Shown: positions 16,769 to 56,281 of the stretch, piece by piece | Numbering within the stretch: position 1 is the stretch's first letter | How the letters are laid out: each line of letters begins with the position of its first letter | Origin: Prorocentrum cordatum | Taxonomy: Eukaryota; Sar; Dinophyceae; Prorocentrales; Prorocentraceae | DNA length: 64,000 bases | Direction: 5' to 3' | Assembly: GCA_963575745.1 (NCBI GenBank) | Contig: CAUYUJ010022440.1 | Location: 1 to 64,000 of the forward strand | Translations under genes and position numbers: made by a program | Notes under the pieces: generated by a model | Databases searched by the model: none | The model's input: the letters and a program-made list of their open reading frames with translations, nothing else | What the model was told of the DNA's origin: nothing

Positions 16769-16791
16769 GGCTCAAGCCATTTCGGCTCAAG
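16769..16791 (+). other. Tandem relict spliced leader of LINE-1
   Basis: GGCTCAAG is followed directly by CCATTTCGGCTCAAG. The 15-nt unit differs at one position from the 3' part of the dinoflagellate spliced leader (CCATTTTGGCTCAAG). The junction AG|CC is the AG inside the leader itself, which can serve as a new acceptor site. This is the arrangement expected after two rounds of trans-splicing and retroposition. Confidence 0.85.
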
Positions 16792-16847
16792 CTGCATTGT
16801 GCAGTCAGGAGTCTTTGGTTCCTCATACTGTACACGGTGCTCTCACT

Positions 16848-17678
16848 ATGAGGGACGACGGCGGCGCCGCGTTGGCTGCTTCTCTTGTGGAGGCAGCGGT
16901 CCGCGCTGCTGTTCAGGCAGGTGCCCCGCGCAGGACTGTCGCAGCCGCCGCGGCTGCCGTGGCCTCGGTCATGGCGGCGACGCGGTGTGGCGTTGGTCCG
17001 GCGCAGGGCGCCCCTGATCCCGCTGCCGCCGGTTCGGCCGGATCACGGCGGCAGCGGAGGAGGCTGAGGAAGAAAATTATGACGTGCAGGTCGGGGCAGG
17101 ATGCTGTCCTTGGGGAGCCTGTCGGGCAGACCCTAAAGGCTGATCAGGATGTTGATCATGAGATATCTTGTTATCACAGGTCCAGTGTTGATCATGGCGC
17201 CTCTGATTTTCATGTTGGGAGCTCGTCATCTAGGCGAGTCCAGTTTGATGATCGGTCTTCAGTGGTTTCTTATGAGATACCCCTTCAAGCGAGGCTGAGA
17301 CCCATATCGAGGAGGCCGAAGAAGAAAACTATGAGTTGCAGGTCGATGGATGACAATACTGAGAGTATCCAGGAAGCCATAGTAGTTCAGGGTAGTAAAA
17401 TCGATAATGTTCAGACCCAGGAACAGAGGAAAGTGATGTTAGCGCAGGAGAAGGATCCTTTTAATCAGATGATGATGAAGCATGTTTGGAAAACGGAGGA
17501 TGCACATGAGGATCTCATCCATGTTGTTCAATCGACGAAGACTGACATCAAAAGAGTTGATGACACACTTAAGTTGCATACGGAGCGCATGGGAGAATCA
17601 GATGCACGGACAGATATTCTGGAGAAACAGGTTAAGCAAATTTTGGCTGGACAAGGACGAGGACAAGGACGAGGATAA
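16848..17678 (+). CDS. LINE-1 ORF1-like protein (276 aa)
   Basis: The first ATG of the frame is at 16848; the frame is open from 16797. The N-terminal ~65 residues are alanine-rich, followed by a basic RRQRRRLRKK stretch. A short motif occurs twice (RKKIMTCRSGQD, then KKKTMSCRSMDD), indicating an internal duplication. From MDDNTESIQEAI onward the protein matches the coiled-coil region of LINE-3 ORF1 (MDDNTERIQDAI, then KIDNVQ). The C-terminal nucleic-acid-binding part of ORF1 is missing. The ending, GQGRGQGRG, comes from a 12-bp repeat at the deletion junction. By family knowledge ORF1 proteins bind LINE RNA. Whether this truncated form is made is unknown. Confidence 0.6.
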   Translation: MRDDGGAALAASLVEAAVRAAVQAGAPRRTVAAAAAAVASVMAATRCGVGPAQGAPDPAAAGSAGSRRQRRRLRKKIMTCRSGQDAVLGEPVGQTLKADQDVDHEISCYHRSSVDHGASDFHVGSSSSRRVQFDDRSSVVSYEIPLQARLRPISRRPKKKTMSCRSMDDNTESIQEAIVVQGSKIDNVQTQEQRKVMLAQEKDPFNQMMMKHVWKTEDAHEDLIHVVQSTKTDIKRVDDTLKLHTERMGESDARTDILEKQVKQILAGQGRGQGRG

Positions 17679-17679
17679 G

Positions 17680-18015
17680 GATGATGGAGTGGGCAGCAAC
17701 AGATGTCAGGATGGTATCGGGCAGCAGCCCAACGAGTATTCGAATCTTTACAGGTATGGTGCCATCGATTGTGGTTTCGATGGTGGAGTGTCGACGGCGG
17801 GTGTCGGAGTCGGTTGCTGTATTGATGTCGGTCGTGTCTCGCGGACGTGTCGTAAGCCGAGCTCTAGAGATATTGTGTGGACGGAGGTGTATAGTGCTGC
17901 TTTCTCTTTCGACAACAATGCTTCAGTTACTGTTGCCGAACTGTCGGCGATTGAACTTATCATTGATGTTCTTCAACGGGTTCTTCACACATACTTTGAG
18001 TTTGAACTTTTGTGA
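17680..18015 (+). pseudogene. LINE-1 fragment of RNase H-like C-terminal domain
   Basis: In the frame ending at TGA 18013-18015, residues read FDGG … GVGVGCCIDVG … IVWTEVYSAAFS … VTVAELSAIEL. This aligns along its length with the last ~90 residues of LINE-3 (FDGG … GVGVGCWIDVG … IIWTEVYSAAFS). It keeps both an aspartate in FDGG and a glutamate in AELSAIE, positions expected to be catalytic in RNase H. The N-terminal portion with GDS and RAD motifs is deleted. It is out of frame with ORF1. Confidence 0.75.
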
Positions 18016-18535
18016 CTTGTGTTTGCGTTGCTTTCTTCATGCTTGTGTGTTCATGCATGCACGCGTGTCGAATAAGAGCTTCGCTTGTTGGCCACTTGTT
18101 GCATGCATTATTGTTTGTGATCGCCTCGCGTGGTCTTTTTGTTTGTTATTGTGACTGCCTCGTGTGGTTATTCAGTGCATCTTTATTCAGTGCAGCGAAG
18201 GCTGTAATGCTTGTATCTCATTTGTTCTTCTTTTCCTCATTTTATCTCTCATTGAGCTCTAACAATTCAGTGTGTGCATGTTCAGTCCTTGGCCAGGTCT
18301 CCTGGCTCTCTTGTCGTAGTCTTAGTCTTGCCTCTTCAGTGTTCTCACTGTTGTAGGGTTTAATTTTAGTTCCGCCTCATCAGTTTCGCAACTGCTCGAG
18401 GGTGAACACTTTGGAGTCTTCTATGTGATGTGCTCCCACAGGCTGTGCCGAACTTCTTTAAGAGACTTCGATTCGCCTGATACTTTGTTGGACCTGGCCT
18501 CAGGGCCAATATGGTCCCAGCAAAGACGCAAAAAA
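18016..18535 (+). other. LINE-1 3' untranslated region
   Basis: About 520 nt without a convincing frame, T/G-rich at first (repeated TTGTG, CATGCATGCACG). It ends with a strong hairpin: GGACC pairs with GGTCC and TGGCC with GGCCA around TCAG, followed by CAGCAAAGACGCAAAAAA. LINE-2 ends with the similar GAGCAAAGCAAAAAA. A shared 3' end of this sort is the usual recognition signal for target-primed reverse transcription. Confidence 0.6.
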
Positions 18536-18642
18536 CCAAGGTTGACGGTTTGCCGCCGGCGCCCAATTCCGGCGCGGGGTGGAGCTAGTTGGCCCACCCG
18601 GCCGAGGCGGACAATGTAACTCGTAGAGCTTCCCTTAGCAAG

Positions 18643-19833
18643 TAACTCGTAGAGCTTCCCTCCAGTTGTTGCTGGAAGCAAAAGAGTAATTCCGGGGCGC
18701 TGGAGAGCTAGTTGGCAAGAAAAATCTCGACGGACCTTTTGCTGACTTTTCGTCGGTTGAATTTTTTTCTCAAAATTTGAGCATTCGTTAGAGTTCTAGT
18801 ATTTTTTCCCATGATATTCGATATTATTCCCACTCGCCATCTTGATCTCAGCTCGAGCGGGTACCTTTTACTGCCAAAAAGCAGGCAGGCGGGATCGACC
18901 GTTTCGAGTCATCGTGATACGTGCTGTCGGTTTTATCAAGATAACTCGAGCTTCAGGACAGCTACAGAGCTGATGAGCACAGCTAATCGATGCAGAATGA
19001 TCAGGCGCGTTCGCCTTTTGAACCCAGAGGGCTGAAGTCGGTCTGCTGGCCGAGCTAGGTCTGCAAACCTATTCGTACTATTCGAGTCATCTTGACAGAC
19101 GCTCTCGGTTTATGTACTCAACTCGAGCTGCAGGACAGCTACGTAGCTGATACGTACAAAATCCGATCAGAATTATCAGTGGCCGTTGTCTGTTGAATCC
19201 AGAGCTCTGAACTCGGTCTTCTGCCCGATCTAGAATTGCGAAAGTATTCGTATTGTTCGAGTCGCTTGCGAGATGCTGTCGGTTCTTTGCACTTAACTCG
19301 GGCTGTAGGGGGGCTGCATGGCTGGTAATCACTGGAATCGATTCGGAGACATCAGGCGCGTTCGCCTGCGGAATCCAGAGCTCTGAACTCGGTCTGTTGC
19401 CCGAACTAGGTCCGCGAAGCTCTCCCTATTGTTCGAGTCATTCTGAGAGGTGCTGTCGGTTTCCTGCACTTAACCCGGAAGCAGGGGGGGCTGCAGGGCT
19501 GGTAATGACAGGGATCGATTCAGAGACATCAGACGCGTCCGACCTGAACTTGGTCTGATACTCGAACTAGGTTTGCCAAACTATTCGTATTGTTCGAGTC
19601 CTCTTGAGAGGTGCTGTCGATTTACGCACGTAACTCGGGCAGTAGGAGAGCTACAGAGCTCGTGCAGAAGACAATCTGGAAGCATCGGGGGCGTTCGGCT
19701 GTTGCATCCGAGAGGTCTGAAATTGCCTGGGCTGAAAAGCTATTTTTTCTGTGTAATTTCTTTCGACATTATTTGTTGTGAGGAAGCTCTACGAGTCCCC
19801 CGGCGGTAAGAAAGGTTGACCGCCGGCGCCCAG
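18643..19833 (+). mobile_element. Type 1 Helitron-like element, nested
   Basis: It is 1,191 bp, inserted between CTTAGCAAG and TTATTGCTGG of the outer element's 5' unit, with clean rejoining. Its terminal hairpin has lost part of the loop and right arm (GGTTGACCGCCGG), so this copy can no longer form the full stem. Confidence 0.75.
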
Positions 19834-20239
19834 TTATTGCTGGAAGCTTGAGTAATTCCGGGGCGCTGGAGAGCTAGTTGGCAAGAAAAATCTCGACGGA
19901 CCTTTTGGTGACTTTTGGTCGGTTGAAAATTTTGTTCTCGAAATTCAACAATTCGTTTGAGCTCTAGTATTTTTCCCGTGATATTCGATCTTATTCCCGC
20001 TCGCCATCTTGATCTCAGCTCGATCGGGTACCTTTTACTGCCAAAAGCAGGCAGGCGGGATCGGCCGTTTCAAGTCATCTTGTCACGCGGTGTCGGTTTT
20101 CTCCCGATAACTCGAGCTTCAGGACAGCTAAAGAGCTGGTAAGCACAGCTAATCGATTCAGAATGATCAGGCGCGTTCGCCTGTTGAAGCCAGAGGTTTG
20201 AATTCGGTCTGCTAGCCGAGCTAGGTGCGCAAACCTATT

Positions 20240-20770
20240 CGTATTATTCGAGTCATCTCGACAGACGCTCTCGGTTTTCTGTACTTAACTCGAGCTACAG
20301 GACAGCTAAAGAGCCGCTACGTACAGAATCGGATTCAGAATCATCAGTTGCCGTTGTCTGTTGAATGCAGAGCTCTGAACTCGGTCTGCTGCCCGATCTA
20401 GAATCGCGAAACTATTCGTATTGTTCGAGTCACTTGCGAGATACTGTCGGTTCTCTGGACTTAACTCGGGCTGTAGGGGGGCTGCATGGCTGGTAATCAC
20501 TGGAATCGATTCGGAGACGTCAGGCGCGTTCGCCTGCGGAATCCAGAGCTCCGACCTCGGTCTGTTGCCCGAACTAGGTCCGCGAAACTATTCGTATTGT
20601 TCGAGTCATCCTGAGAGATGCTGTCGGTTTCCTGCACTTAACTCGGCTGCAGGGGGGGCTGCAGGGCTGGTAATCACAGGGATCGATTCAGAGACATCAG
20701 ACGCGTCCGCCTGTCGCATGCAGAGGTCTGAACTCGGTCTGATGCTCGAACTAGGTTTGCCAAACTATTC
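20240..20770 (+). repeat. Reference stretch of the ~176-bp internal tandem monomer
   Basis: CGTATT(A/G)TTCGAG recurs at 20240, 20416, 20593 and 20770 (periods 176, 177, 177). Elsewhere periods of 175-177 are seen, for example 48739, 48914 and 49091. Each monomer carries three potential hairpins: CTGTAG…CTACAG, CAGGCG-CGTT-CGCCTG, and CTCGG…CCGAG. Monomers are clearly diverged from each other and occur in runs of about three to six inside type 1 elements. Confidence 0.85.
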
Positions 20771-21312
20771 GTATTGTTCGAGTCATCTTGAGAGGTGCTG
20801 TCGATTTACGCACGTTTTTCGGGCTGTAGAAGAGCTACAGAGCTCGTAAAGAAGACACTCCAGAAGCATCGGGGGCGTTCGGCTGTTGCATCCGAGAGGT
20901 CTGAAATTGCCTGGGCTGAAAAGCTATTTTTTACGTGAAATTTCTTTCGACATTATATGTTGTCGGTAAGAAAGGTTGACGGCTTACCGCCGGCGCCCAG
21001 TGGTAACTTTTGGGTGGTTGTCCGAATATTTGAAAGATATTTAACCATTTTTTTTGAGAAAGCAGATTTTTCGCACCTGTAGTGGGTTAAGGCGCGCCTG
21101 CCAGTAAAATTTCCAGATCCGTAGCTGTAGTATTACTATCAAAACACTTGGAGGAATCAACGTTGGATAAAAACAGAAAAACGTGATTTTTCGAGTTTCT
21201 CAGGTCTTGCTCTAGACGCTTTCTTCATGCTTCTTGATGAGCGCCGTGTGAGAAAAGAGCTCTACGAGGGCCCCGGAGGTAACCTGGTTGACGGTTTACC
21301 GCCGGTTCCCAG

Positions 21313-22321
21313 TAATTCTGGCGCGCTGGAGAGCTAGTTGGCTCGAAAAAAAAGAACTGAACTTTTCACAACTTTTGGTCGGTTGAAAATTTTGTTCTCG
21401 AAATTCAACAATTCGTTTGTGCTCTAGTAGTTTTCCCGTGATATTCGATCTTATTCCCGCTCGTCATCTTGATCTCAGCTCGATCGGGTATCTTTTACTG
21501 CCAAAAAGCACACTGGCGGGATCGGCCGTTTCGAGTCATCTTGATACGCGTTGTCGGTATCTTGTACTTAACTCTGTAGGACAGCTACAGAGCTGCTAAG
21601 CACAGCTAATCGATGTAGAATGATTAGATGCGTCCGCCTGTTGAATCCAGAGCTCTAAACTCGGTTTGCTAGCCGAGCTAGGTCCGCAAACCTATTCGTA
21701 TTATTCAAGTCATCTTGATTCGCACTGTCGGTATTCTGAACTTAACTCGAGATATAGGACAGCTACAGAGCTGGTAAGCACGCCGTATCGACTCAGAATC
21801 ATCAGGCGCGTTCGGCTGTTCCAACCAGAGGTCTGAACTCGGTCTGCTAGCCGAGCCAGGTCCGCAAACCTATTCGTATTATTCGAATCATCTTGATAGG
21901 CGCTCTAGGTTTCCTGTACTTAACTCGAGCTATAGGACAGCTACAGGGCTGATAGTTACAGCAACCGATTCAGAATCATCAGCCGCGTTTGTCTGTCGAA
22001 TCCAGAGCTCTGAACTCGGTCTGCTGCGCGATCCAGAATCACGAAGCTGTTCGTATTCTTCCAGTCATCTTGAGAGTTACTGTTGGCGTTCTGCACTTAA
22101 CTCGGGCTGTAGGGAGTCTGCATGGCGGGTAATCACAGGAATCGATTCGGAGACATCAGACGCGTCCGTCTGTCGCATTCAGAGGTCTGAACTCGGTCTG
22201 ATACTCGAGTTGGGCTGAAAAACTATTCGTTCTCTGCAATTTTTTTCGACATTATATGTTGTCAGGAAGCTCTACGAGTTCCGGCGGTAACAAAGGTTGA
22301 CGGTTTACCGCCGGCGCCCAG
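21313..22321 (+). mobile_element. Type 1 Helitron-like element, 5' unit partial
   Basis: It begins TAATTCTGGCGCGCTGG inside the 5' unit, has a variant leader (TTGGCTCGAAAAAAAAG), about four monomers, and ends with hairpin and CCAG at 22321. Confidence 0.65.
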
Positions 22322-26591: not shown

Positions 26592-27428
26592 TTGCTTGGG
26601 CTGATTTTTTTTCTCTGCAATTTGTTTCAACATTATATGTTGTCAGGAAGCTCTACGAGTCCCCCGGCGGTAACAAAGGTTGACGGTTTACCGCCGGCGC
26701 CCAGTGTTGATATGCGTTGTCGGTATTTTGCACTTAACTCGAGCTGTACGGCAGTTACAGAGCTTATTCTCACAGAAATCGATTGCGAATCATCAGGCGT
26801 GTTCGTCTGTTCCATCTAGAGGTTTGAACTCGGTCTGCTAGCCGAGCTAGGTCCGCAAAACTATTCCTATTGTTCGAGTTATCTTGTGAGATGCTGTCTG
26901 TTTTCTGCACTTAACTCGAGCTGTAAGAGGGCTTCAGGGCTGGTAATCACTGGAATCGATTTTAAGACATCAGTCGCGTCTGCCTGCCGCATTCGAGCTC
27001 TGAACTCGTGCTATGTCCGCAGAACTATTCGAATTGTTAGAGTTATTCCAGAGGTGCAGTCGGTTTTCTGCACTTAACTCGGGCTCTAAGGGGGCTGCAG
27101 GGCTGGCAATCACAGGAATCGATTCCGATACATCAGGCGCGTCCGTCTGTTGCATTCAGAGGTCTGAACTTGATCTGATTCTGGAGCTAGATTCGCGAAC
27201 GTATTTCTGTTGTTTGAGTGATCTTGATAGGTGCTGTCGATTTTCGCACATAAATCAGGCTGTAGGAGAGCTACAGAGCTCGTGCGCACAGGAAACGATT
27301 CAGAAGTATGAGGGGCGTTCGGCTGTTGCATCGAGAGGTCTGAAATCGCTTGGGCTGAAAAACTGTTCGTTCTCTGGATTTTTTTGACATTATATATGGT
27401 CAGGAAGCTCTACGAGTCCCCCGGCGGT

Positions 27429-27439
27429 AACAAAGGTTG
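27429..27439 (+). repeat. Left target-site duplication of LINE-2
   Basis: AACAAAGGTTG, 11 bp, is identical to 33345-33355. It lies in the loop side of the type 1 terminal hairpin. The last G may be shared with the leader relic. Confidence 0.85.
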
Positions 27440-27476
27440 GCTCAAGGCGTGGTTGCTCAAGGCGTGGTTGCTCTTC
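27439..27476 (+). other. Triple relict spliced leader of LINE-2
   Basis: GGCTCAAG (27439-27446) is followed by GCGTGGTTGCTCAAG and GCGTGGTTGCTCTTC. The unit length is exactly 15 nt, as in LINE-1. The first 15-nt unit matches 10 of 15 positions of the leader's 3' part, all at the conserved GCTCAAG end plus three others. The two units are nearly identical to each other, so a diverged leader may have been used. Confidence 0.7.
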
Positions 27477-27795
27477 GCATCCGACAGGGGTTTTAAACTC
27501 TGCCTGGACCTCGCCTCCAGTTTAGAGCCCCTACGCCAGCAAAGTTGTGTTTCGCTTACGTTACGAGGGCATACACGCATCAAGCCCCTTGGGTAGTGGG
27601 CTTCCTAGCTTCCCTCTTGCCAGTTTTCAATCAGCTGAATCTTGTTGTGCACTCAGGACGCGTTGCAGATAGCAGATTCATCTTGTTTGTGGCAATTTCT
27701 TCAGTTGCACTTGTACTTTGTCTCCTTGCCTCGTTCTCTTTCACATTGCAGTTATGGAGGAAATGACAAAATAAGAGGAGTTGGACATCGAAGGT

Positions 27796-28926
27796 ATGGG
27801 AGGGGATGATCTTCAAAGCAAGATCCGTGGGGGTATACCGCCAGGTCTCTTGGATGCAGCAGCGGGAGCAGCAGGTGGACTTTTGGAGGAAGAAAAGGAT
27901 GCTAAACGTCGTCGTCAGAGTGAGTTGGCACGGCAGCAGCGTGAGCAGGCATTGATTCAACAACAGCATCAGCAGCTGAATCCTCAGTTGGCGGCACTCT
28001 CGCAGCTGCTCGATTCGAAGTTTGCCACACAAAAGGATAATTTTCAGTCTATCATGCAAGGTGAAGTTGCGCCGATCAAACTGAAGTTGGAAGAGCACAG
28101 TACCGATTTGCAACGCCTCAATGCACAGGTGCAGTCACAGCAGAGACAGTTAGAAGCCCTCCAAAGTAAAACGAATGCCGATGCCTCAACAGTTGCTTCA
28201 TCACGTGGGACTGGGTCGGGGAATCCTGGCTTCCAGTTCCAGGGTACTCGTGGGGAGTTTGGCTTCAAGGGTCCGAGGCCAACCTTTCAACCAACGATGA
28301 TAACTTTAAAAGGATGGGCACGCACAGCGTCAGAAGAGCTTCATAAAAGATCCAAGGCTTTACTCCCTGGAGCGGTGGCCCAGCGCCTCCTTGCGACTCT
28401 GTTTCAAAGAGCGAATTGCTTGGCGCACGTGGATGAGACAAAAACGAATGATGAGAACAGTAAGAACCCCATGGGATGTTATCAGCTCAAGATATGTTTC
28501 AAAGCCACGGCGACGAAGGATATGATGTGGGACTTTCGCAAAGCGTTCATTCAATGTTTCGAGCAGAAAGCCATCTTTGAAGATCCACACGATGCGACCA
28601 CGTACAGCCACATCTGTGATGAAAGGATCACGGTTACGGAGGAGGCCTCTCCGTGGCAAGAACCGCACATCAAAGCTGCTGGCAAATTCAAGGCCCTATT
28701 CTATAAACATCGTTCGTGTGCCAGCGCCTTTGTAAAGGTGGAAAAATATGGACCCCCAGCCACGTTTCTATGGGCTTACCCGTCCGAGCAGCACCTGCAA
28801 AAGGGACAGTGTGTTGCCTCATGGAAGCCTGATCGTGCAGTGGGTTGGAAGATTGATGAGGATATGATCAAGGAAGTCGATCCAAACTTCAAACTGGGGG
28901 ATTTCAAAGCTGATCTCATGAGTTGA
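27796..28926 (+). CDS. LINE-2 ORF1 protein (about 376 aa)
   Basis: The frame opens after TAA 27772-27774 and the first ATG is at 27796. Residues ~30-130 form a glutamine-rich coiled coil (EEEKDAKRRRQSELARQQRE, then heptad-like LNAQVQSQQRQLEALQSK). A glycine-rich linker follows, then a globular C-terminal domain of ~200 residues (WARTASEELHKRSK … GKFKALFYKHR … KYGPPATFLW). The last part aligns with LINE-3 ORF1 (GRFCGTIRSM … GEMGPPKSTIW). By analogy it is the RNA-binding, trimer-forming LINE ORF1 product. It ends with TGA-C and the endonuclease frame continues in the same frame. Confidence 0.75.
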   Translation: MGGDDLQSKIRGGIPPGLLDAAAGAAGGLLEEEKDAKRRRQSELARQQREQALIQQQHQQLNPQLAALSQLLDSKFATQKDNFQSIMQGEVAPIKLKLEEHSTDLQRLNAQVQSQQRQLEALQSKTNADASTVASSRGTGSGNPGFQFQGTRGEFGFKGPRPTFQPTMITLKGWARTASEELHKRSKALLPGAVAQRLLATLFQRANCLAHVDETKTNDENSKNPMGCYQLKICFKATATKDMMWDFRKAFIQCFEQKAIFEDPHDATTYSHICDERITVTEEASPWQEPHIKAAGKFKALFYKHRSCASAFVKVEKYGPPATFLWAYPSEQHLQKGQCVASWKPDRAVGWKIDEDMIKEVDPNFKLGDFKADLMS

Positions 28927-29514
28927 CGGTGCCCTGGCAAGTGGCACGAACAATTGGCTGAGGTTGATCGCTCAATTTTCAGCTGGAACGTTCGATTGCT
29001 AGGGACTGCACAATGCCACGAGATTTTCGCCCAGGTCTTCAATTCATGCAATGTGATTCTCCTTCAAGAGTGCCAGTTTGTCTCCGATTGTGTTGCTGAG
29101 GAACACGGTTGGAATCTTTGGCGCTCCTCTTGTGAGCGAGCTTGCGTGGGCCTCCGAGGTGTTTGGAAGGATGGTGTCCAACACGAGGCCAGAGGCGACC
29201 GTTGGGTTGCCGTTGTTTGCTCTAATGCCATCTTTCTCTCTCTTTACTTGCCCCAGAAGTATTTGCATGGAAAGTCTCGTGAGCAGTTTTTGCGTACGCT
29301 TAGTGTATACCAAGAAGTGCTGAGGGATGCAGCGCTCAATGTTGCCAGATTGAAAAAGCAGTTTCGAATTCAGGATGTTGTTTTAGGAACTGATGCTAAT
29401 GTAGAGGTCGAGCCTCAGGTTTTCCACATGTCTCAGGCTGTCTCGGGTTCTAGTGTTGTAGGTGTGCCTATTTGTCCCTCGTACGAGGGATGGCGGATTT
29501 CAGAGGCGATCTAA
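28927..29514 (+). pseudogene. LINE-2 ORF2, N-terminal APE endonuclease part
   Basis: The frame is contiguous with ORF1 across its TGA and has no ATG before the first catalytic motif. Motifs in order: SWNVR (Asn), LLQECQ (Glu), WVAVVCSN … LSLYLP, and GTDANVEVEP (Asp and Asn). The remaining motifs (YDYIGVPSSW and SDHGLLHL) are in the next frame, starting around 29,460-29,500, so a frameshift splits the domain. The fold corresponds to the AP-endonuclease-like nuclease that nicks target DNA in LINE elements. Confidence 0.8.
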
Positions 29515-31381
29515 GGAGTTTGCTTTGGAGCTCAGTGAGGCTCTGACTTTCACTATTGGCACCCTGGGCCTCCAGTTGGCCAACACCTTCAACCCTACGA
29601 GGCTCCCTACCTGGCGCTCTGCTAAATGGGCTCGCTACAGGCACCTACCCCAAGAACAGCAGTACTCTCACGTCTACGACTACATAGGTGTACCTTCGTC
29701 TTGGGGAGCTCCGGAGGTCTCCGTCTTGTGGCCACAGCCGGGGGCAGCGCGTATGTCTGGTAGGTCGGCCTCGAGCTTTTGGAGTGATCATGGTCTGTTA
29801 CACTTGCGTATCCCTGCTCGTGTCTTGCCTCGTCGAGTTGTGCGTCCCAATCCTGTCCGCAACACACGTTGGCACGTTCAGTCTCATCGTGTACCTCTTT
29901 TGCGCTATGCGGTTGATGCAGCCCTGGTGACTGGCAGCAGCCAGACAGAACAGACCGATTGGAGTGGACACACGGGTCTCTCGCCCACGGAGCTAGGTGA
30001 CAAGATTCGACAGCCTTGTGAGGAAATCGGCGAGGTCCCCACCAAAGCCGACCTCACCCCGAAAGTTTCTGAAAAGTATGTTGCCGCTCGGGAGGCTGCA
30101 CTTGAGATGAGGAGAAAGAGAAATATGGGTGAACGCACGGAGGAGGAGTTCAAGAAGGCGAGGAGGAGGTACAGATATGAGAGGAGGAAGCATGGGAGGA
30201 ATATCTTGGAGTATGAGTTCCGTCCAGGTCTACAGCATCGAACTTACCTTAAGACGCTCAAAGTTGAGGGAGTTCACACTTGGGACAAGTCTAAGTGGGA
30301 GAAGGCCCTCAGAGCGCACGGCTTGGCCATGTACACTGATGAACATGAGCGTGCACGCACAAACAGTAAGCTTGAGGAGATGAGGAAGAGGTTGCAGGAG
30401 GTGAATGTGCAGGAGTACCAACCTATCGATATCGGCCTGCTCATGCGTGCTAGGTCTCGTCTTCGTTCAGGAAAGGCCGTAGGTAAGGACAACATCAGCG
30501 TCTCCATGCTTAAGCACATCCCTTGGTCAGGTTGCCTCCAAGTCTTGCGGTGCTTTCAGCAGCTGTTTATGCGCGAGTATTGCACACCCACAGCATGGCG
30601 CCATATATGTATACAGCTTATGCCGAAGTCTGTGAAGACTTGCGAATTCAATGACACACGAGCTTTATCATTATTATCTTGCCTGTCAAAATGGTATATG
30701 TCATGTCTCACCTTGGTGGCCGTGGACCATCTCAAACGGAGTGTTGCCCCCGAGGTCATGCTCTTCGGGTTTGTTGCTGGAAGACGGACACACGATATTA
30801 CTGGTGGTTTGAAGAGAGTTGCTCAGCACGCGACGGAATGGGGTAAGTCATATTGTATGCACATGGCGAGCTTAGACGTGTATCGTGCTTTTGATAACGT
30901 ACAGGTGGCCGACGTTGCTGACTGCCTGGAGGAGTTGAGGTTTCCACCTGAACTTAGTTATGCGCTCATGGAGGGCCTAGCTGAGAACAGGGCCGATTTA
31001 TCCTTCCAGCAGGTGGACGTCTCGGACATAGCTTGGGATAGTTGTATCCGCACAGGTAGTGTTGAGGCCCCGCTCTTTTGGCTGTGTGAGAGTGTGCTCA
31101 TGTTCCGTTCTGTGGTCTTGAGTTGGCAGGAGCGGGGGATGGGAGTGCAGTTGACGCAGCAGGCAGGGACTCGTCATCTTACACATGCGATTTGGGCCGA
31201 CAATGTTCTGTTGTGTGCCAGAGATCAGAGCGAGTTGACGACCATGATTGCGGAGATCAGTATCCCACTTTATCACAGAAAGTACAGATGGAAACCGAGT
31301 AGCTTGCAGTTTATTCGCTTTGGCTATGATGAGCCTGGGACTGAGAGTTTGGACGTCTCTTTTGCGTTGCCGAATTCCTAG
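29462..31381 (+). pseudogene. LINE-2 ORF2, endonuclease C-terminus and reverse transcriptase
   Basis: Residues ~1-130 finish the endonuclease (YDYIGVP, SDHGLL). A basic linker (ARRRYRYERRKHGR) follows, then the RT domain: RSRLRSGKAVGKDNIS (motif 1/2 region), MPKSVKTCEFNDTRALSLLS, FVAGRRTHD, motif A SLDVYRAFDN (Asp ~472), motif B GSVEAPLFWL, motif C WADN at ~578-581. The usual Y/F-A-D-D is WADN here and in LINE-3. The frame is closed by TAG 31379-31381, but conserved sequence (RLEILGTILDNS) continues in frame beyond it. Confidence 0.85.
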
Positions 31382-31745
31382 GACAAGCGTCAGAGAGTGA
31401 CTATAACGTTGCAGCAGACAGTCCGTTTGGAAATACTTGGCACGATTCTTGATAACAGCATGCGACAACATGAGGACTTGAATCATCGGATTTCTCGCTC
31501 AAAAGGCGTTTTGGCAAGATAAGAAGTATTACATGTGCCATGGTATTAAGTTGAAGAAAAGATTGATGCGATACGACTCACGTGTAAGAAGCCGATTATT
31601 GTTTGCAGTGGAAGGGATGACAGCTGACAAAAATGGTATTGAATCGATTCATGCGTTTGAAGGCCGCTTACTTTCGAAGATGGTATGGAGACGGAAACGT
31701 GACACCGAGAGTTGGCCACAGTTTTTTTTCAGAGCGTGTACTTGA
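31382..31745 (+). pseudogene. LINE-2 reverse transcriptase C-terminal region in broken frames
   Basis: After the TAG the same frame continues to a TAA near 31,522 with sequence like the LINE-3 thumb region. A second piece in another frame (about 31,533-31,745) contains IHAFEGRLLSKMVWRRKRD, matching LINE-3 LNAFEGWCLCRMFRRPRRE. At least one stop and one frameshift are therefore present in this copy. Confidence 0.65.
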
Positions 31746-32638
31746 CGGGGCGGAAAGCACTCAGGACAGCTCAGATGCCGAGTGCGTCTCAGCTCTTTCT
31801 TTTCAAACAGTGGAGTTGGGCAAAGGATGTGGCGACGACAACTGCTCAAAACGGGATCCGCCAAGTTGATGACGCCCAGCCTACAATTGATCCAATGGAA
31901 ATGGGTGGTGCAGTGTCTCTTGATATGGATGGGATGTCTCAGAATGCGGGTGCTACTGCACCGATTACCACGGACTTGATGTCTCAGAATGCGGGTGCGG
32001 TCGTACCGATTACCACGGATTCGATGTCTTTGAATGCGGGTGCTGCTGTACCGATTACCAGAGATCTGAAGCGACGGAGGGTGACTGTTATTGTGGCCCC
32101 TGTCCTTACTGCCCGAGGGGACCTCGCCGTTGCTCAGCCAGAGGGTCAGGAGAACAGCGCCACGAGTCAGAACCGACGACGGCTTATCTCTCAGGCGCCC
32201 CGTGCTGCTGCCAAAAGGAGCAAGACTGCTCCCACACCTGCACCAACGCCATCATCATCATCAGCCCCTACACCAGCGCCAGCAGCCATGCGAAGCAGGT
32301 TTCGAAGGGATATGGTGGGGGCGAGTGCGGATGACCCTTTCTTGCAGGCTCGTTACACGATGATGCGTGCCGCCAGCCCGTGGACACAGCAGATGGATGC
32401 CGTTATTCGCACCTATAACTCGCAGGAAGCACGATCCTTTACACGTCGAAGGGAAGGTGGAAAAACGGTGGGACTTCGTCCGTGGGGCTTGCCATTTGAA
32501 ACGGTGGGTGGAGATGCTTGGTATGATACTCTTGAGTGGACTCAGGCAGGGTGGAGATGTTTTATCCGTTCGTTGCTTTCGGAATGGGACCTTCAACATG
32601 TTTTAGAATATGCTCACCTGCCTGAACCAAAACCCTGA
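31712..32638 (+). pseudogene. LINE-2 linker region between reverse transcriptase and RNase H
   Basis: The frame of 308 aa is in frame with the RNase H-like domain downstream and separated from it only by TGA 32636-32638. It contains a 15-residue motif three times in tandem (MSQNAGATAPITTDL and variants, DNA ~31,930-32,065), a proline/serine/alanine-rich low-complexity stretch (APTPAPTPSSSSAPTP), and a tryptophan-rich end. No enzyme motif is recognised. In LINE-3 the corresponding linker is different and lacks the repeat. Confidence 0.55.
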
Positions 32639-33301
32639 AGGCCGAAAAACGACGAGGAGGAGGTGGAGGGGACGGAGGAGAGAAATAATGAGATTGCAAA
32701 GCGGCTCGCCTTTAACTTCGAGAATGCCAGCGTCTGGAACTACGAGGCTGAAGGGATTCCCGTCGAGCTCTGTGGTGACTCCCAGGTGGTAGTGAACTGG
32801 CTGGTGGGACAATATGTATGTACGACGGAAGTATATTGTGAGACCATTGCACACATTCAAAGTATATTATACAGATTACACTTGAACTACCGCGTGAATC
32901 TGAGGCCGCCGTCTTGGGGTTTAGATCCTTGGAAGTGGTTTTATCGTGAGGGAAACGAGCGTGCTGATGCTGAAACTTGGAAGGCCCGCACGGGCCAGAA
33001 CCATCGTATTTTCGACCCGTGCAGTCATACTCTCAGAAGGGAACAAATAAAGGGGATTCGCGGCTACTTCCATGGTGGTCGTTCCTCCCACGGTGTTGGC
33101 ATTGGTTGGGTTATTGACTTATTCGTGCTCCCCCTCCCTGCTCTTCAACAGTCTCAAGGCTCTTGGCTATTCAACATAGCCTCCGAGGCTGCCGCCATCC
33201 CGCCGACCTGCACGGTTAGTCAAGCTGAGCTCTTGGCCAGCAACCGCCTCGCTGAAGGTGTCGAGCACCTGCTGCTCCTCTGCTGCGGACCTGAATCCTG
33301 A
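32639..33301 (+). pseudogene. LINE-2 RNase H-like domain with unusual motif order
   Basis: Open from the TGA at 32636 to TGA 33299-33301. Motifs in order: a helix with NNEIAKRLAF; GIPVELCGDSQVVVNWLVG (Asp of the third RNase H motif); FYREGNERADAETW (last motif); then YFHGGRSSHGVGIGWVI, which resembles the first RNase H strand (Asp replaced by His here); then TVSQAELLASNRLAEG, resembling the Glu helix. In ordinary RNase H the DG and Glu motifs come first. LINE-3 shows the same order, so it is not a rearrangement of this copy. Confidence 0.65.
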
Positions 33302-33344
33302 GCGGGGGCTCCTTTGTCCCTGTGGGCTCCGAGCAAAGCAAAAA
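33302..33344 (+). other. LINE-2 3' end
   Basis: Only ~43 nt separate the last stop from the target duplication. The end GGGCTCCGAGCAAAGC plus A-run resembles the LINE-1 end (CCCAGCAAAGACGC plus A-run), supporting common 3'-end recognition although the coding parts are distant. Confidence 0.6.
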
Positions 33345-33355
33345 AACAAAGGTTG
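33345..33355 (+). repeat. Right target-site duplication of LINE-2
   Basis: AACAAAGGTTG is identical to 27429-27439. The host hairpin continues with ACAGTTTACCGCCGG (one change from consensus ACGG). Confidence 0.85.
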
Positions 33356-33377
33356 ACAGTTTACCGCCGGCGCCCAG

Positions 33378-36714: not shown

Positions 36715-36755
36715 GGGGTCTCGACGCTTCCAAGTAACTCGTATCCCTTAGCAAG

Positions 36756-37972: not shown

Positions 37973-37987
37973 TTCTTGCTGGAAGCT

Positions 37988-41967: not shown

Positions 41968-44900
41968 TGCTGAGATTTTAAAGATATACCTCGTAGAGAG
42001 CTCTTCGGCTTCGATGAGCTAGAGGAATTCCGGCGCGGGGTGAAGCTAGTTGATCGACCCGACCAAAAGAGACAATGCGGTGTCTTTGGGTCGGTTTTGC
42101 TAATACCTCGTAGAGCTCTTCGGCATGGATGAGCTAGGGGAATTCCGGCGCAGGGTGGAGCTAGTTGGCCGACCCGGCCAGAAAGGACAAAGTGATGACT
42201 TTTGGGTGGTTTTGCGAAAAGTTGAAGGATATTTGACAATTCATTTTGAGAAAGCAGATTCTTCGCACCTGTAGTGGGTTATGGCGCGTCCGCCAGTAAA
42301 TTATCAGGCCCATAGGTGCAGTATTATTATTGAAACACTTGGAGGAACCGACATTGGATCAAAACAGAAACACGTGATTTTTCGAGTTTCTGAGGTCTTG
42401 CTCTGGACGTTTTCTTCATGTTTACCGAGGAGCGCCGTGTGAGGAAAGAGCTCTACAAGGGCCCCGGCGGTAACCTGGTTGACGGTTTACCGCCGGTTTC
42501 CAGTATTTGAAAGATATTTGACAATTCATTTTGAGAAACCAGATTTTTCCCACCTGTAAACGAATATGAGGGCCTCTGCGTCTTAATATGAGCTCTGTGG
42601 GCGCATATTTACTATCAAAACACTTGGGGGAACCAACTTCATGTCGACATGAAAAAAAAATATATTCAATTTTTCGAGAAATGCCTCCAGAAGCTCTCTC
42701 TCCCGACTCTGAGCTTTCTCACGCGTGACAAGAGCTCTTCGAGGTTCCCGGCGGTGACCAGGTTGACGGTTCACCGCCAGCGCCAGTCGTAGAGCTCTTC
42801 CGAGGAATTCCGGCGTTGGGTGGAGCTAGTTGGTCGACCCGACCAGAACGGACGCCGGCGCCAGTTGGCCGAGCCGACCAAAAGAGACAATGTGGTAACT
42901 TTGGATGGGTTTTGCTGAAATGTCAAAATACATTTGGAGAACGGGTATTTTTCTCACGTGTAGTGGGAAATGCCGCGTCTGCCAGTTAAATTCTCAGGTC
43001 TGTAGCTGCAATATTATTATCAAAAGACTTGCAGGAACCAACTGCGTTCCGAGTCATCTTCAGACGCGTTGACGGTTTTCTGTCCTCAACTCGAGATTTC
43101 GAAGCTACAGAGCTGATATTTACAGAAACCGATTCAGAATCATCGGGTGCGTTCGTCTGTTACTCCAGAGGCCTCAACTCGGTCTGCTACTCGAGCTGGG
43201 TCCGTCAAACTATTTGTGTTATTCGAGTCATCTTGACCAGTGCTATCGGTTTTCTCTACTCAAGATTCAGATAAGCTACAGAGCTGGTGTGCACATAAAC
43301 TGATTCATTATCACGAGGCGCGTGCGTCTGTTGCATCGAGAGGCCTGAACTCGTTCTGCTACTCGAGCTAGGTCCAGCACACTATTCGTCTGAATTTTTC
43401 TGTGAGGCGCTGTCGGTGTCTGCACTCTACTAGCTGTAGCACAGCTACAGAGCTGGTACGCACAGAAACCCATACAGAATCATCGAGGGCGTTTGGCTGA
43501 AGCATCTGGAGCTCTGAGCAGAGTCTGCTTCTCGAGCTAAGTCCGCAAAAATATTTGTATGCGACCCATTTTTTTTAATGCCGCGTCTGTCAGTCAAATT
43601 CTCAGGTCCATAGGTGCAGTAACTTGGGGGAACCGACAAATAATGAAAACAGAAACGTCGTGATTTTTCGAGTTTGTTCAGTTCTCGCTTTGGAAGCTTC
43701 CTTCATGTGTTCCGAGGAGCGCTGTGCAAGAAAAGAGCTCTACGAGGTGCCCGGCGGTGACCTGGTTAACGGTTTACCGCCGGTTTCCAGTTGGTCGACC
43801 CGGCCAGAAAAGAAGATGTGTTAACTTTGGGTCGGTTTTGCTACGATTTGAAAGATATTTGACAATTCATTTTGAGAAAGCAGATTTTTCGCACCTGTGG
43901 ACGACTATGAGGGCCTCTGCATCTTGATATGAGCTCTGTAGGCGCGCTTCCACTATCAAACACTTGGGGGGACCACTTCTTGTCGACATGAAAAAATCAA
44001 TGTTCAATTTTTCGAGAAATGCCTCCAGAAGCTCTCTCTTTCGACTCTGAGCACTTTGGTGCGTGGAAGGTTCTACGAGGTTCCGGCGGTGACCAGGTTG
44101 ACGGTTCACCGCCGGCACCAGTTGGTCGACCCGACCAAAAGAGACAATCTGTCAACTTTGGGTTAGTTTTGCTTTGATTTGAAAGATATTTGACCATTTA
44201 TTTTAAGAACGGCATTTTTCTCTCGCGTAGTACCTCGTAGAGCTCTTCGGCATCGATGAGCCAGAGGAATTCCGGCGCGGGGTGGAGCTAGTTGGTCGAC
44301 CCGACGAGAAGAGACAATGTGACAACTTTGTGTCGGTTTTGCTGGTATTTGAAAAGTATTTGACCATTCATTTTGAGAAAGCAGATTTTTACGCCGAGCA
44401 TTGACGTGTGAAATTTCTTCCCAGAGCAGCTCAGCTCTCTAGAGCCAGTTTTACTATCGGAAAAAAAGGAGGAACCGACATGACGTTGACACCGAAAAAT
44501 ACAAATGCGACATTTTTTCTAGAAATTCTCCGAGAAGCTGTCTGCTTTCAATCTGAGCACTTTTAGGCGTGGAAGGAGCTCTACGAGGTTCCCGGCGGTG
44601 ACCAGGTTGACGGTTCACCGCCGGCGCCAGTTGATGAGCTTGAGGAATTCCGGCGCGGGGTGGAGCTAGTTGGATCACCCGGCCCGGGTGGGCAAAGTCT
44701 TAACCTTTGCTCAGTTTTCCTAAGATTTGAAAGATATTTGATTATTCATTTTTAGAAACCAGATTTTTCGCACCTGTAGTGGGTTATCCCGCTGCCAGTA
44801 TTACTGTCAAAACACTGGGAGGAACCGACATTGGATGAAAACAGAAAAACTTGTTATTTCGAGTTTTTCGTTTCTCGCTCCAGAAGCTCTCTTCATGTGT

Positions 44901-45105
44901 TCCGTCGATCGCCGCGAGATAAGAGCACTACGAGGTTCCCGGCGGTAGCCGGGCTGACGGTTTACCGCCGGTTCCCAGTGATTTTTCGAGGGGTCGTGCT
45001 CCAGACGCTTCCTTCATGTGTACCGAGGAGCGGTGCGAGAAAGAAGCTCTACGAGGGCCCGGGCGGTAACCTGGTTGACGGTTTACGGCCAGTTCCCAGT
45101 CTAAA
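41968..45105 (+). repeat. Mosaic of T-type and T3 elements, with two monomer runs
   Basis: 3' ends (hairpin plus CCAG or CCAGT) occur near 42,500, 42,785, 43,792, 44,120, 44,632, 44,978 and 45,102. 5' ends occur after AAAGATA (41,988), GCTAA (42,112) and CGTAG (44,229), always before T. Positions ~43,040-43,560 hold three diverged ~176-bp monomers. No coding gene is supported; short frames are chance openings. Confidence 0.6.
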
Positions 45106-46437
45106 ACCCTCTAGCTTTCAGAGAGCTCTCTGGGAAAAACCGACCCAAAGTCACCGCGTTGTCTCTTGAGGTCGTTCGGCCAACTGGGAACCCGCGGTAA
45201 ACCGTCAACCAGGTTAACGCCGGGCACCTCGTAGAGCTCTTTTCTTGGACAGCGCTTATCGGAACACATAAAGGAAGCTTCCGAAGCGAGAGTCAAAAAT
45301 TTGAAAAATCACGATTTTTCGGTTTTCATCCAAAGTGGATTCGTGCAAGTGTTTTCATAGTACTGGCACCGGCGGTGAACCGTCAACCTGGTCACCGCCG
45401 GGAACCTCGTAGAGCTCCTTGCACGCGTGAGAGTGCTCGGAGTCGAAGGAGAGAGTTTCTGGAGGGATTTCTGAAAAAATTGAACATTCATTTATTTCAT
45501 GTCGACGTAGAGTTCGTTCTCCCAAGTGTTTCGATAGTAAAAGTGCGCCTGCAGAGCTCATATTAAGACGCAGAGGCCCTCACAGTCGTCCACAGGTGCG
45601 AAAAATCTGCTTTCTCAAAATACATAGTCAAATATCCTTCAAATATTCACAACACCATTCAAAAGTTGTCACTTTGTCCTTTCTGGTCGGGTCGACCAAC
45701 TAGCTCCACCCCGCGCCGGAATTCCTCTAGCTCATCGATGCCGAAGAGCTCTTCGAGGTAATACTGCACCTAGGGACCTGAGAATTTGACTGGCAGACGC
45801 GGCATAACCCACTCCCCTTCCTCCCTCCCCGCCTGCTTGTCGAAAAAGTTTATCAGATCACTCAGGAAAAAAACGCATTTTTTAGTGTCGATCCAGAGTC
45901 GGTTCCTCTAAGTTTTTCGATAGTAATACTGGGAACCTGCGGTGAACCGTCAACCAGGTTACCGCCGGGGCCCTCGTAGAGCTCTTTTCTCGCACGGCGC
46001 TCCTCGGTACACATGAAGGAAGAGTCTGGAGGAAGACCCCAAAAATTCAAACATCACGATTTTATGTTTTTATCTAAAGACGGTTCCGCCAAGTGTTTTG
46101 AGAGTAATACTGCACCTACGGACCTGAGAATTTCAGTGGCAGATGCGGCATAACCAATTACAGGTGCGAAAAATCTGCTTTCTCAAAATGAATGGTCAAA
46201 TATCTTTCGGATCTTTGCAAAACCGGCCCAATGTTGTCACATTGTCCTTTCTGGCCGGGTCGATCAACTAGCTCCACCCCGCGCCGGAATTCCTCTAGCT
46301 CATCGATGCCGAAGAGCTCTACGAGGTATTGCCTCGCTCCCCGCGCCAGAATCCCTCTAGCTCATCGATGCCGGAGAGCTCTACGAGGTATTACTCTGAA
46401 GCTTCCAGCAACTAGCTAAGAGAAGCTCTACGAGTTA
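45106..46437 (-). repeat. Inverted mosaic of T-type and T3 elements with solo 5' units
   Basis: Minus-oriented hairpins lie near 45,187, 45,365 and 45,937. Inverted 5' units end in CTCTACGAGGTA near 46,330 and 46,391 and in CTCTACGAGTTA at 46,437. Orientation is opposite to most of the stack, as in the 23.2-26.6 kb block. Confidence 0.6.
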
Positions 46438-48298
46438 CGCCCAGGAGCGCCACCTGGAATGGCTAGGCGTTGAAGCGGAGTCTGGAGGTGGTGCCTCGGC
46501 TGCAGCCAGCAGCTCAGGCGGCGGCCCTGCTGCTCCCGCGGCATTGCAGGCGGCGGAGGTGGCGGCTGCCAGCCTGCCCCTGCAGCAGCCAGCCTCGAAG
46601 AGAGCTGAGCTTCTCGGCGTGCACGGGAACGCCGAGGAGAGGTCGGCGGAGGTGGGCTGTTGGCGGGCACCACCACTTTCTGGCTTCTAATCTAAAACCC
46701 TACTGCTCCCAGGGAGCTCTCCGGGAAACTTCTGCAGCGCTGCCAGGAACGCCTCCACGCGTGCCTGAACGCGCGCAGGCACGCGTGGGCGTGTGCCGGA
46801 AGCGCTCCCGGACACGCTGCGAAGTTTTGCAAGCTGCTGCGGGGATTCCGGAGCGGCGAAGATGGGCTGCTGGCAGGAACAACCACCGTCCGGCTTGCAC
46901 CCTAAAACCCTGTAGCATATTAGAGCCGGCGGCGCTGAGTGGCCCCGAAGCATTGTCTTTCCGGCGCCTTGCAGGAAACCTCGCGGCCCGCTTGGGTGCG
47001 CAGTGTGTCCCGAGAAGCGTTTTCATATTCGTTCCCAGAACGCGTTCTGGGGGCACTTCCGAAAAATCTTTGAAGCTCTCTGGAAGCTCCTGCGAAGCTT
47101 TTTCTTCGGCGTGCAAGCTCCAGGGGTTTGCTTTTCAGCGCTCTTTCAAGCGCTCCCCGCAATCATCTTGCGGGCTGTGGCATCTGGTTTGCTTCGAAAG
47201 GTTGGAAAGAGCTAAGAGGGTTCAGATTGAGAGCCCGGAGACGCACTGAAGCTCGTTCGGACTTCCGGCAGGCTCAAGGGCTCTGTATATTTCCGCATGT
47301 CGAGAGGATGGTGGAAGCCACGGCGCGTATCTCAAGTCTTTAAATGAAGGTGTTTGCTCCGCGCGAGAAACTTGCTGCACTGAGTGAAATCTTGCCAGAG
47401 AAGCCCGCGCGCTTCGAAAAGGGCGTTTCGAAGGAGCTTCGAGGGGGCTGCGAGGGGCCGCGGGAGACAGGCTTGCGGCACGCGTATTGGGAACGAGTAG
47501 AAAAACGCTCTCGGGGCGCTTTCCCCTCAAGCAGCTCGCTGCGACGCTGCTTGACCGGGGGCTCTGGAGAGGAGCTCGCGTGGCCCTGCCTGCCGGCTTT
47601 TCATCTAACGACTCTCATTGCTTTCTAAGAAGGTATCCAGCATTTTTCAGCTCTGACCCAACCAGGAGGTCCACGATATATAGCGACGCAGGCTAAGACG
47701 CGTAGAACTCTCCTGGGAGACGCCTGCAAGGGCGCTGTGCAGCATTCCTGGGGAGCATGTGAGCTTTAGTACTGTGATGTCCTAAACTGGATGGTGACGC
47801 GATCCGATGGGCGTGGAAGGCTTAGGAAAAATACGCTTGCGGGGACGCTGGGAATATGCTCTTGAGACCATGGAGCTTTGTACGAGCTCCGAAAGTGCTT
47901 CGAAGACCTTGAGGACATTCTGTCGGGCGCGCGTATTCGGAACAGGTGCGGGCACGCTCTCGGGGCACGTTAGAGGCTCAAGCAGGCCGCTTCGAGGCTG
48001 CTTGGCCGGCGCTGGAAAGCGCTGCCAGGCCACTTCGCTGCTGGCTGGAAATCTCAAGGCCTTTTGCTTTTTGGAGAGCTATCCAAAAACTTGTGGCGTC
48101 CACTCGTTGCTCAGAATCCGATATTGTGGGGTCCGTTTGTGGTGTCTACTTGTAGAGTCCATTTCTGCAGTCCACTTGCGGATTCCAGATTCCTAATAGC
48201 AGCGCGCCAGAATGCGTGCGAAGGCCCGTCAAAGAACTCGCGAAAGAATCTGCGGACAGCTTCCAGAGGACATCCCAGGGAGCTTCCCAGCGCGCATA
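46438..48298 (+). repeat. GC-rich segment with long inverted-repeat hairpin, no clear gene
   Basis: At 46755-46788 the arms CCACGCGTGCCTG and CAGGCACGCGTGG are perfectly complementary around AACGCGCG. Related sequence lies in the 36-kb GC-rich module. Phrases such as CGCTCTCGGGGC and CGGAACAGGTGCGGGC recur near 47,030, 47,500 and 47,940, suggesting a degraded ~450-bp repeat. Several frames are open for 80-260 codons on both strands, as expected at this GC content; none has recognisable motifs. Confidence 0.5.
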
Positions 48299-48337
48299 TA
48301 CCTCGTAGAGCTCTTCGTTATCCATGAGCTAGAGGAA
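48299..48337 (+). repeat. Truncated solo T-type 5' unit
   Basis: TACCTCGTAGAGCTC … GAGGAA, interrupted by the following type 1 element at the recurrent GAGGAA^T position. Confidence 0.6.
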
Positions 48338-49307
48338 TAACTCGTAGAGCGTCCCTTAGCCAGTTGCTGGAAGCTTAAGAGTGATTCCGGCGCGCTGGAG
48401 AGCTAGTTGGCAAGAAAATCTCGACGGACTTTTTGGTGACTTTTGGTAAGTTGAAAATTTTCTTCTCGAAATTCAACCATTCGTTAGAGCCCTAGTATTT
48501 TTCCCGTGATATTCGATATTATTCCCGCTCGCCGTCTTGATATCAGCTCGATCGGGTACCTTTTACTGCCAAAAAGCGCCCAGGCGGGATCGGGCGTTTC
48601 GAGTCATCTCGACGAGCTATAGGACAGCTACAGAGCTGATACTTACAGAGCCCGATTCAAAATCATCAGTCGCGTCTGTCTGTTGAATCCAGAGCTCTGA
48701 ACTCGGTCTGCTGCCCGAGCTAGGTTCGCGGAGCTATTCGTATTGTTCGAGTAATCTTGAGAGATGCTGTCAGTTTTCTGTACTTAACTCGGGCTGTAGG
48801 GGGGCTACAGGGCTGGTATTTACAGGAATCGATTTAGAGACATCGCGCGTCCGCCTGTCGAATCCAGAGCTTCGAACTCGGTCTGCTGCCCGAGCTAGGT
48901 CCGCGAAACTATTCGTATTGTTCGAGTCATCTTGAGAGGTGCTGTCGGTTTTCTGCTTTTAACTCGGGCTGTAGGGGTGCTGCAGGGCTGGCAATCACAG
49001 GAATTGATTCGGAGACATCAGGCGCGTCCGCCTGTCGCATTCAGAGGTCTGAACTCAGTCTGATACTCGAGCTAGGTTCGCGAACCTATTCGTATTGTTC
49101 GAGTCATCTTAAGAACTGCTGTCGATTTTCGCACGTAACTCAGGCTGTAGGAGAGCTACAGAGCTCGTACGCACAGAAAACGATCCAGAAGCATCAGCGG
49201 CGTTCGGCTGTTGCATCGAAAGGTCTGAAATCGTTTGGGCTGGAAAACTATTCGTTCCCTGCATTTTTTCGACATTATATATGGTCAGGAATCTCTACGA
49301 GTCCCCC
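48338..49307 (+). mobile_element. Type 1 Helitron-like element cut by LINE-3
   Basis: It starts TAACTCGTAGAGC, with four monomers and an AT-rich tail to TCTCTACGAGTCCCCC. LINE-3 begins exactly where the CGGCGGTAA arm would follow. The remaining hairpin and CCAG end are not found downstream. Confidence 0.75.
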
Positions 49308-49330
49308 GGCTCAAGACATCTCGGCTCTAG
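49308..49330 (+). other. Tandem relict spliced leader of LINE-3
   Basis: GGCTCAAG is followed by ACATCTCGGCTCTAG, which matches 11 of 15 positions of the leader's 3' part. Same layout and unit length as LINE-1, but older-looking. Confidence 0.75.
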
Positions 49331-50869: not shown

Positions 50870-50893
50870 CGACGACGACGCCGTACACCGTAG

Positions 50894-53724: not shown

Positions 53725-53744
53725 CGATTTCTCCGTATGTAAGG

Positions 53745-55764: not shown

Positions 55765-55769
55765 ACCAT

Positions 55770-56190: not shown

Positions 56191-56275
56191 GTAAGGAAGT
56201 CTAGGGCGAAACGCCCGGGCCGCCCTTCCGACCGGCGTCGAGGTGCGGCAGGAAACAGTTATTCATAAGGAAAAT

Positions 56276-56281
56276 GCTGGG

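Follow-up and report, generated by a model that had tools for sequence, protein, structure and literature searches.

The window analysed here is a stretch of 64,000 nt (positions 1-64000, forward strand) of contig CAUYUJ010022440.1 from Prorocentrum cordatum (GCA_963575745.1). It carries three long interspersed nuclear elements, designated as LINE-1, LINE-2, and LINE-3, all inserted on the + strand and in sense orientation into 3'-terminal hairpins of Helitron-like elements. LINE-1 (16769..18533) directly follows the hairpin 5' arm CTCTACGAGTTCCCC (16754..16768, read directly). Its tail is followed by the loop AACCAAGGTTG (18534..18544) and the 3' arm ACGGTTTGCCGCCGGCGCC, and the 3' side reads directly as GCAAAAAACCAAGGTTGACGG. 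The near full-length LINE-2 (27440..33344) has the 5' arm of its hairpin at 27408..27428 and is bounded by an 11-bp target-site duplication of the hairpin loop, AACAAAGGTTG, at 27429..27439 and 33345..33355, with the 3' arm ACAGTTTACCGCCGGCGCC after the right copy. Its first bases at 27440 are GCTCAAGG, and its 5' end has 15-nt tandem repeats ending in GCTCAAG. LINE-3 (49308..54918) starts with GGCTCAAGACATCTCGGCTCTAG after the 5' arm CTCTACGAGTCCCCC (49293..49307, also read directly). Its homology to three relatives stops at 54918 in all three comparisons, the last ~100 nt and the right flank being missing from the window, and LINE-3 is therefore judged at the 5' end only. Direct re-reading of the junctions bears out what a first, sequence-only reading of the window had reported: the three LINEs are inserted at the same hairpin spot, LINE-2 has the 11-bp duplication, and all three host hairpins are of the first of the three loop types described below. 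A 5' junction common to LINE-1 and LINE-3 had also been reported, and GGCTCAAG does start directly after the arm in both (at 49308 in LINE-3), with an ambiguity of 2 nt, as GG fits hairpin and element alike.

LINE-2 and LINE-3 are assigned to the non-long-terminal-repeat (non-LTR) retrotransposons by their predicted reverse transcriptase (RT) domain. The RT open reading frame (ORF) of LINE-2 (29462..31381) matches PF00078 with E 2.5e-6 and 27.8 bits, just under the cut-off of 29.6 bits, and has homologues 67-69% identical. That of LINE-3 (51814..53724) matches with E 4.6e-7 and 30.2 bits, above the cut-off, and is 44% identical to Prorocentrum cordatum proteins. The two reverse transcriptases are only ~32% identical and yet both families use the same site, so the insertion preference looks old, as the sequence-only reading had supposed. 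Endonuclease-like ORFs are at 28954..29514 in LINE-2 (LLQE and GTDAN by eye, with SDHGLL in the overlapping next ORF) and at 50975..51862 in LINE-3 (DAN and SDHGLL by eye). In PDB sequence searches, neither the LINE-3 endonuclease ORF nor P0006 had a match. RNase H-like C-terminal ORFs are at 32663..33301 in LINE-2 and 53745..54824 in LINE-3. In this domain GDSxxVV...RxxNxRAD precedes FDGG...AEL, an order that looks circularly permuted, and a weak RVT_3 match (E 0.1) to the C-terminal half of the profile is located in its upstream piece. LINE-1 is a short copy of 1.77 kb, in which an internal deletion fused an ORF1-like 5' part to an RNase H-like 3' part and removed the RT part. It is a deleted relative of LINE-3, sharing 50% identity with it over 108 aa of the RNase H part, and at least 39 further LINE-1 copies were scored genome-wide by DNA homology.

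The target hairpin has the form CTCTACGAG-NNCCC-CGGCGGTRA...GGTTGACGGT-TYACCGCCGG-CGCC(C)AGT and is intact 52 times in the window, 42 times on the + strand. Its loops are of three types (22, 14, and 16 copies of types 1, 2, and 3), which have GGTTGAC and GGCGGT in common, and (C)CAGT or CCAGT comes directly after nearly all copies. The hairpins terminate Helitron-like, partly tandem elements, and the arm GAGCTCTACGAGG has its inverse complement CCTCGTAGAGCTC close by. A 3'-terminal hairpin near a constant end and a subterminal inverted repeat are presumably Helitron/Helentron traits. Tandem units of 59-61 bp at Helitron-like 5' ends (window 4750-4872 and others) carry ACCTCGTAGAGCTC, which is inversely complementary to GAGCTCTACGAGGT of the 3' end. 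The Helitron replication protein domain PF14214, counted irrespective of the hairpin, is abundant in the genome, with 151 matches from 150 scored of 1,615 candidates. All genome-wide counts refer to the assembly of 4,128,499,153 bases in 21,875 contigs. In this assembly the exact type-1 hairpin half CTCTACGAGTCCCCCGGCGGTAA occurs 13,578 times and its reversed control 0 times, so that one hairpin subtype alone makes the high-copy home that had been proposed from the window.

Hairpin halves are at both ends of nearly all LINE copies read, as they would be if the hairpin belonged to the LINE, or to a composite element, and were not its target. This reading is refuted because empty sites exist: 52 intact LINE-free hairpins in the window (a type-1 target at 26651..26697 on the + strand, for example) and, genome-wide, one intact half in 13,578 exact copies. 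Furthermore, the same hairpins are used by LINEs with little common sequence, and the loop variants vary among copies and agree on both sides of the copy L047. Practically no credit is left for it. The 52 hairpins of ~47 nt make up ~3.8% of the window, and by simple arithmetic the probability that three independent junctions all fall in hairpins by chance is near 5e-5; the genome-wide tests are much stronger.

Copies for the reading of 3' ends were selected through body homology alone, independent of their flanks. The LINE-1 3' end as query gave 974 candidates and the LINE-2 3' end 157. From each set 40 were scored, the window copy included, and 30 of the 39 others were read (for the LINE-1 family, 8 with the LINE-1 tail and 22 with a longer tail). 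All 60 copies end at the hairpin loop (30/30 in each family), and the hairpin 3' arm follows in 59. In the exception, L162, the loop end is followed by a second, 5'-truncated LINE-2, apparently from two insertions into one hairpin loop. Four copies for which the 5' hairpin junction was the criterion of choice, and which therefore depend on it, also end in the loop (L131 and the LINE-3 relatives L132-134), which brings the total to 64/64. L131 (copy L021, LINE-2-like) has a tail of repeated CGCCTAGAACGCCTAGA, not poly-A, at the same loop; the target site is therefore independent of the A tail. The 3' end of another copy, L041, was absent from the 2.5-kb piece 3' of it.

These junctions would not be independent if a few hairpin-plus-LINE loci had been spread with their flanks by segmental duplication, and identical flanks do occur in the pairs L046/L055, L016/L017, and L018/L019, and also in L072/L073 and L050/L097/L104. 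The flanks are diverse as a whole: downstream, the 63 copies with a 3' arm have 57 distinct flanks of 22 nt, and upstream, a comparison of 60 flanks gave only 8 pairs more than 93% identical over more than 400 bp. Segmental duplication is thereby refuted as the main cause. Also, the loop-junction copy L047 is flanked on either side by the loop variant of its own site, AAGGAAGGTTG, and the LINE-1 family occupies hairpins of types 1, 2, and 3. As an account of the shared junctions, duplication is thus highly improbable. Besides L047, target-site duplications are present in the window LINE-2 and in L149/L150, and short deletions at arm junctions. A fixed 3' end, a variable 5' end, and a duplication or short deletion together form the signature of target-primed insertion, and the target is strict, as in site-specific LINEs with an apurinic/apyrimidinic-type endonuclease (APE).

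The loops used differ between the families. LINE-2 copies are in type-1 loops in all 29 cases with a 3' arm, and L162 has a type-1 loop as well (30/30), whereas the LINE-1 family is in type 1 in 25 of 30 copies and otherwise in type 2 or 3-like loops, three of these with one shared flank. The use of three loop types by the LINE-1 family would fit recognition by the endonuclease of a DNA structure, hairpin or cruciform, and not of the loop sequence, as the sequence-only reading had proposed for the hairpin. The loop sequence is pointed to, however, by the 30/30 LINE-2 copies in type 1, although the window has many hairpins of types 2 and 3, and GGTTGAC and GGCGGT are common to the types, so that sequence explains the data equally well. 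Recognition of the structure is considered unlikely, though not to the degree of the two readings above.

For 5' ends of the LINE-1 family, 40 of 1,929 candidates were scored and the best 30, the window copy among them, were read upstream for a hairpin arm within 140 nt and with at most 2 mismatches. The arm was found in 28 of the 30, exact in 25. A simple regular expression flagged 19/30 as joined at the loop; by reading there are 18 (after GGTTG), L043 being a false match, together with 9 joined at the arm and L053 near the nick. Only one pair of upstream flanks in this set is identical (L046/L055). The sequence-only reading had set as its own check whether the flanks of relatives are scattered over unrelated DNA. 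In the homology-chosen relatives they are not, with 60/60 at 3' ends and 28/30 at 5' ends. The 18 loop-joined copies have a leader of ~50-60 nt, but L067 has the GCTCAAG repeat there. In L045-L068, the loop-junction leader ends in ..CTCTCGAG/CTGCATTG (slash at the junction), and copies with a spliced leader are joined at the same AG. Because leader copies and spliced-leader copies meet at this AG, two RNA forms of one LINE family seem to have been inserted at different hairpin positions. When 10 LINE-2 5' probes were placed where a full-length 5' end was expected, 5 showed a LINE-2 5' end, in hairpin or hairpin-flank sequence in L139, L141, L145, and L149.

The 5' motif GGCTCAAG common to LINE-1 and LINE-3, not identified in the sequence-only reading, is the tail of the spliced leader (SL), DCCGTAGCCATTTTGGCTCAAG, with which dinoflagellate mRNAs begin (PMC6616646 and PMC7245778, excerpts), and CCATTTTGGCTCAAG is the relict left by SL after retroposition (PMC12014239, excerpt). 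In LINE-1, the truncated SL tail and a relict unit, CCATTTCGGCTCAAG, with one mismatch to CCATTTTGGCTCAAG, occupy 16769..16791. GAGTYCCCC joined to GGCTCAAG occurs 152 times in the genome, and 6 times in the reversed control. Thirty loci cut from the 152 group into four clusters by nucleotide sequence; LINE proteins of the window are matched by one or more loci in every cluster. Of the 30, 5 have a second unit of hairpin arm and SL tail (TCCCCC or TCTCCC followed by GGCTCAAG/T). A complete SL attached to the hairpin arm was counted 77 times (control 0), and among the copies read above the complete SL is at the hairpin junction in L041, L044, L050, and L058.

Remnants of an older hairpin behind SL were found in 12 of 20 loci read from the 77. 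Nine have the arm and/or loop of an old hairpin (L113-L118, L121, L122, and L130), and three an arm-remnant unit such as GTCCCCGGCTCAAG (L112, L119, and L123). L114 has several arm-remnant units in a row and an arm. The 20 include one pair, L127 and L129, without a difference over 554 nt. In 20 control SL retrocopies no remnant was seen, with ~50 nt viewed behind SL versus 90 nt in the test set. The SL attachment points coincide with AGs of the Helitron-like 3' end, namely TGTCAG/GAAGCTC, AAG/CTCTACGAG, and CGAG/TCCCC. In the 53 hairpin 5' arms of the window a T-rich tract is present, and AGs lie at positions -6/-5, -2, and +7 counted from the arm. Read-through transcription followed by trans-splicing is proposed because the attachment points match these AGs and a T-rich tract precedes them, and the target seems to supply the trans-splice acceptor.

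SL tags at 5' junctions would also be expected if any SL-tagged complementary DNA (cDNA) were delivered to hairpins, the LINEs being only a part of general SL retroposition. The genome has 14,218 exact SL copies, and only 77 follow the CTCTACGAG arm. Twenty SL retrocopies (L175-L194) were picked across contigs from the first 100 exact SL matches listed, and none has the hairpin, so that hairpin homing belongs to the LINEs and not to SL retroposition in general. General SL retroposition into hairpins is accordingly very doubtful. On the same counts (0/20 and 77 of 14,218), the converse candidate, the hairpin-homing machinery as the maker of general SL retrogenes, was rejected. In 12 of the 20 retrocopies a (CCT)n-type repeat was read directly before SL, and in 5 more other simple repeats, which suggests that SL-tagged cDNAs also have a second route of retroposition, directed to microsatellites.

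Taken as a whole, the observations are very probably explained by LINE homing to the loop of the Helitron-like 3' hairpin, with target-primed insertion, SL trans-splicing of read-through RNA, and re-insertion. Several old non-LTR families with a putative apurinic-type endonuclease would insert in sense orientation into this loop. The first step may be a nick in the bottom strand on the left border of the loop (GGCGGT^AANNAAGGTTG), where target-primed reverse transcription would start from the 3' end of the LINE RNA. The second side could be completed by one route with duplication of the loop (the ~11-bp target-site duplication), while for an RNA starting with SL the cDNA end would join the hairpin 5' arm via CC(G) or GG microhomology with a few bases lost. 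In this case the shared 5' junction is more probably set by SL and a short microhomology and not simply by a second endonuclease cut. The inserted copy would be transcribed through read-through from the Helitron-like element, and its pre-mRNA would gain SL at the AG acceptors of the 3' end of the host element (TGTCAG/GAAG/CTCTACGAG/T). Re-insertion into a new hairpin would then keep the remnant of the old one behind SL.

It is also somewhat probable that the Helitron-like 3' end is targeted as a portable trans-splice acceptor, which would presumably be of selective advantage. A promoterless cDNA would be read through and SL-capped, fragments of old targets would stack, and the 5' leader would become a heritable log of landings; the LINE could then be regarded as an expression parasite of another transposon.

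Several points weigh against homing to the hairpin as set out above. L056 (LINE-1 family) has the complete SL and no hairpin, and L069 shows only a degenerate hairpin match. In L153, a LINE-2 copy, the 3' end is in the loop but the 5' end is on non-hairpin DNA, and 5 of the 10 LINE-2 probes did not show the 5' end. Flanks are duplicated in L046/L055, L072/L073, and L050/L097/L104. The endonuclease is recognised by motifs read by eye (LLQE, GTDAN/LDAN, SDHGLL), with no Pfam match for the LINE-2 and LINE-3 ORFs. Finally, the copies read are short stretches of the best-scoring ones and hence probably young.

Probably the nearest known case is Tx1L of Xenopus, which reportedly inserts into the DNA transposon Tx1D. 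R2-type elements are embedded in their target and co-transcribed with it, and their RNA is freed by a ribozyme. The present LINEs likewise appear to be transcribed together with their target, but trans-splicing, and not ribozyme release, appears to set the 5' end, so that pieces of old targets travel along. SLACS and CZAR insert into spliced-leader genes and are, like the present LINEs, site-specific and linked to SL trans-splicing; their target is the SL gene, whereas in the present case the RNA of the LINE itself bears SL, and a transposon end serves as target. The same likeness and difference hold for NeSL, a LINE inserting into spliced-leader genes (PMC4640811, excerpt). Transposons are among the known targets of target-specific non-LTR elements, of which the APE-type ones belong to the Tx1 and R1 clades and likewise insert precisely into repeated sequence (same excerpt). 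Unlike these, the present LINEs have a Helitron-like terminal hairpin as target and SL tags with earlier-target remnants at the 5' end. Among open-licence PMC papers, no account of such hairpin-homing SL-tagged LINEs was found. Dinoflagellate SL-tagged retrogenes have similar 5' SL relicts, including a truncated CTCAAG unit followed by CCATTTTGGCTCAAG (PMC12014239 and PMC6050394, excerpts). In contrast to them, the relict units of the LINEs hold target-arm remnants (TCCCCC, TCTCCC, GTTCCC, and whole hairpin halves), and the LINEs have a fixed insertion site, whereas the majority of the SL retrocopies sampled are in microsatellites. Truncated CTCAAG relicts in retrogenes were ascribed to a TG splice acceptor (PMC12014239, excerpt); the LINE data may offer an alternative origin for them.

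Target-specific LINEs are known mainly from ribosomal DNA, telomeres, and small RNA genes, while here several divergent families share a terminal hairpin of a DNA transposon with very high copy number. SL trans-splicing would be a simple answer to the expression of a promoterless site-specific LINE in a dinoflagellate. From the remnant stacks, the insertion history of a single lineage can be traced over several rounds. As candidate sequence-specific nickases, the LINE endonucleases would be new and would have a short, defined target.

The region 46440-48300 was considered as a fourth LINE and rejected, as tblastn with eleven LINE ORFs gave no match there. The hairpin and two LINE proteins had no match among viral contigs, and the archaeal locus L001, the sole match in a search of the genome contig collection, was read as a chance match. 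The rest of the window (54919-64000), starting where LINE-3 is cut off, is GC-rich DNA with several tandem arrays, among them two near-identical arrays of period 64 at 57366-57814 and 59775-60223.

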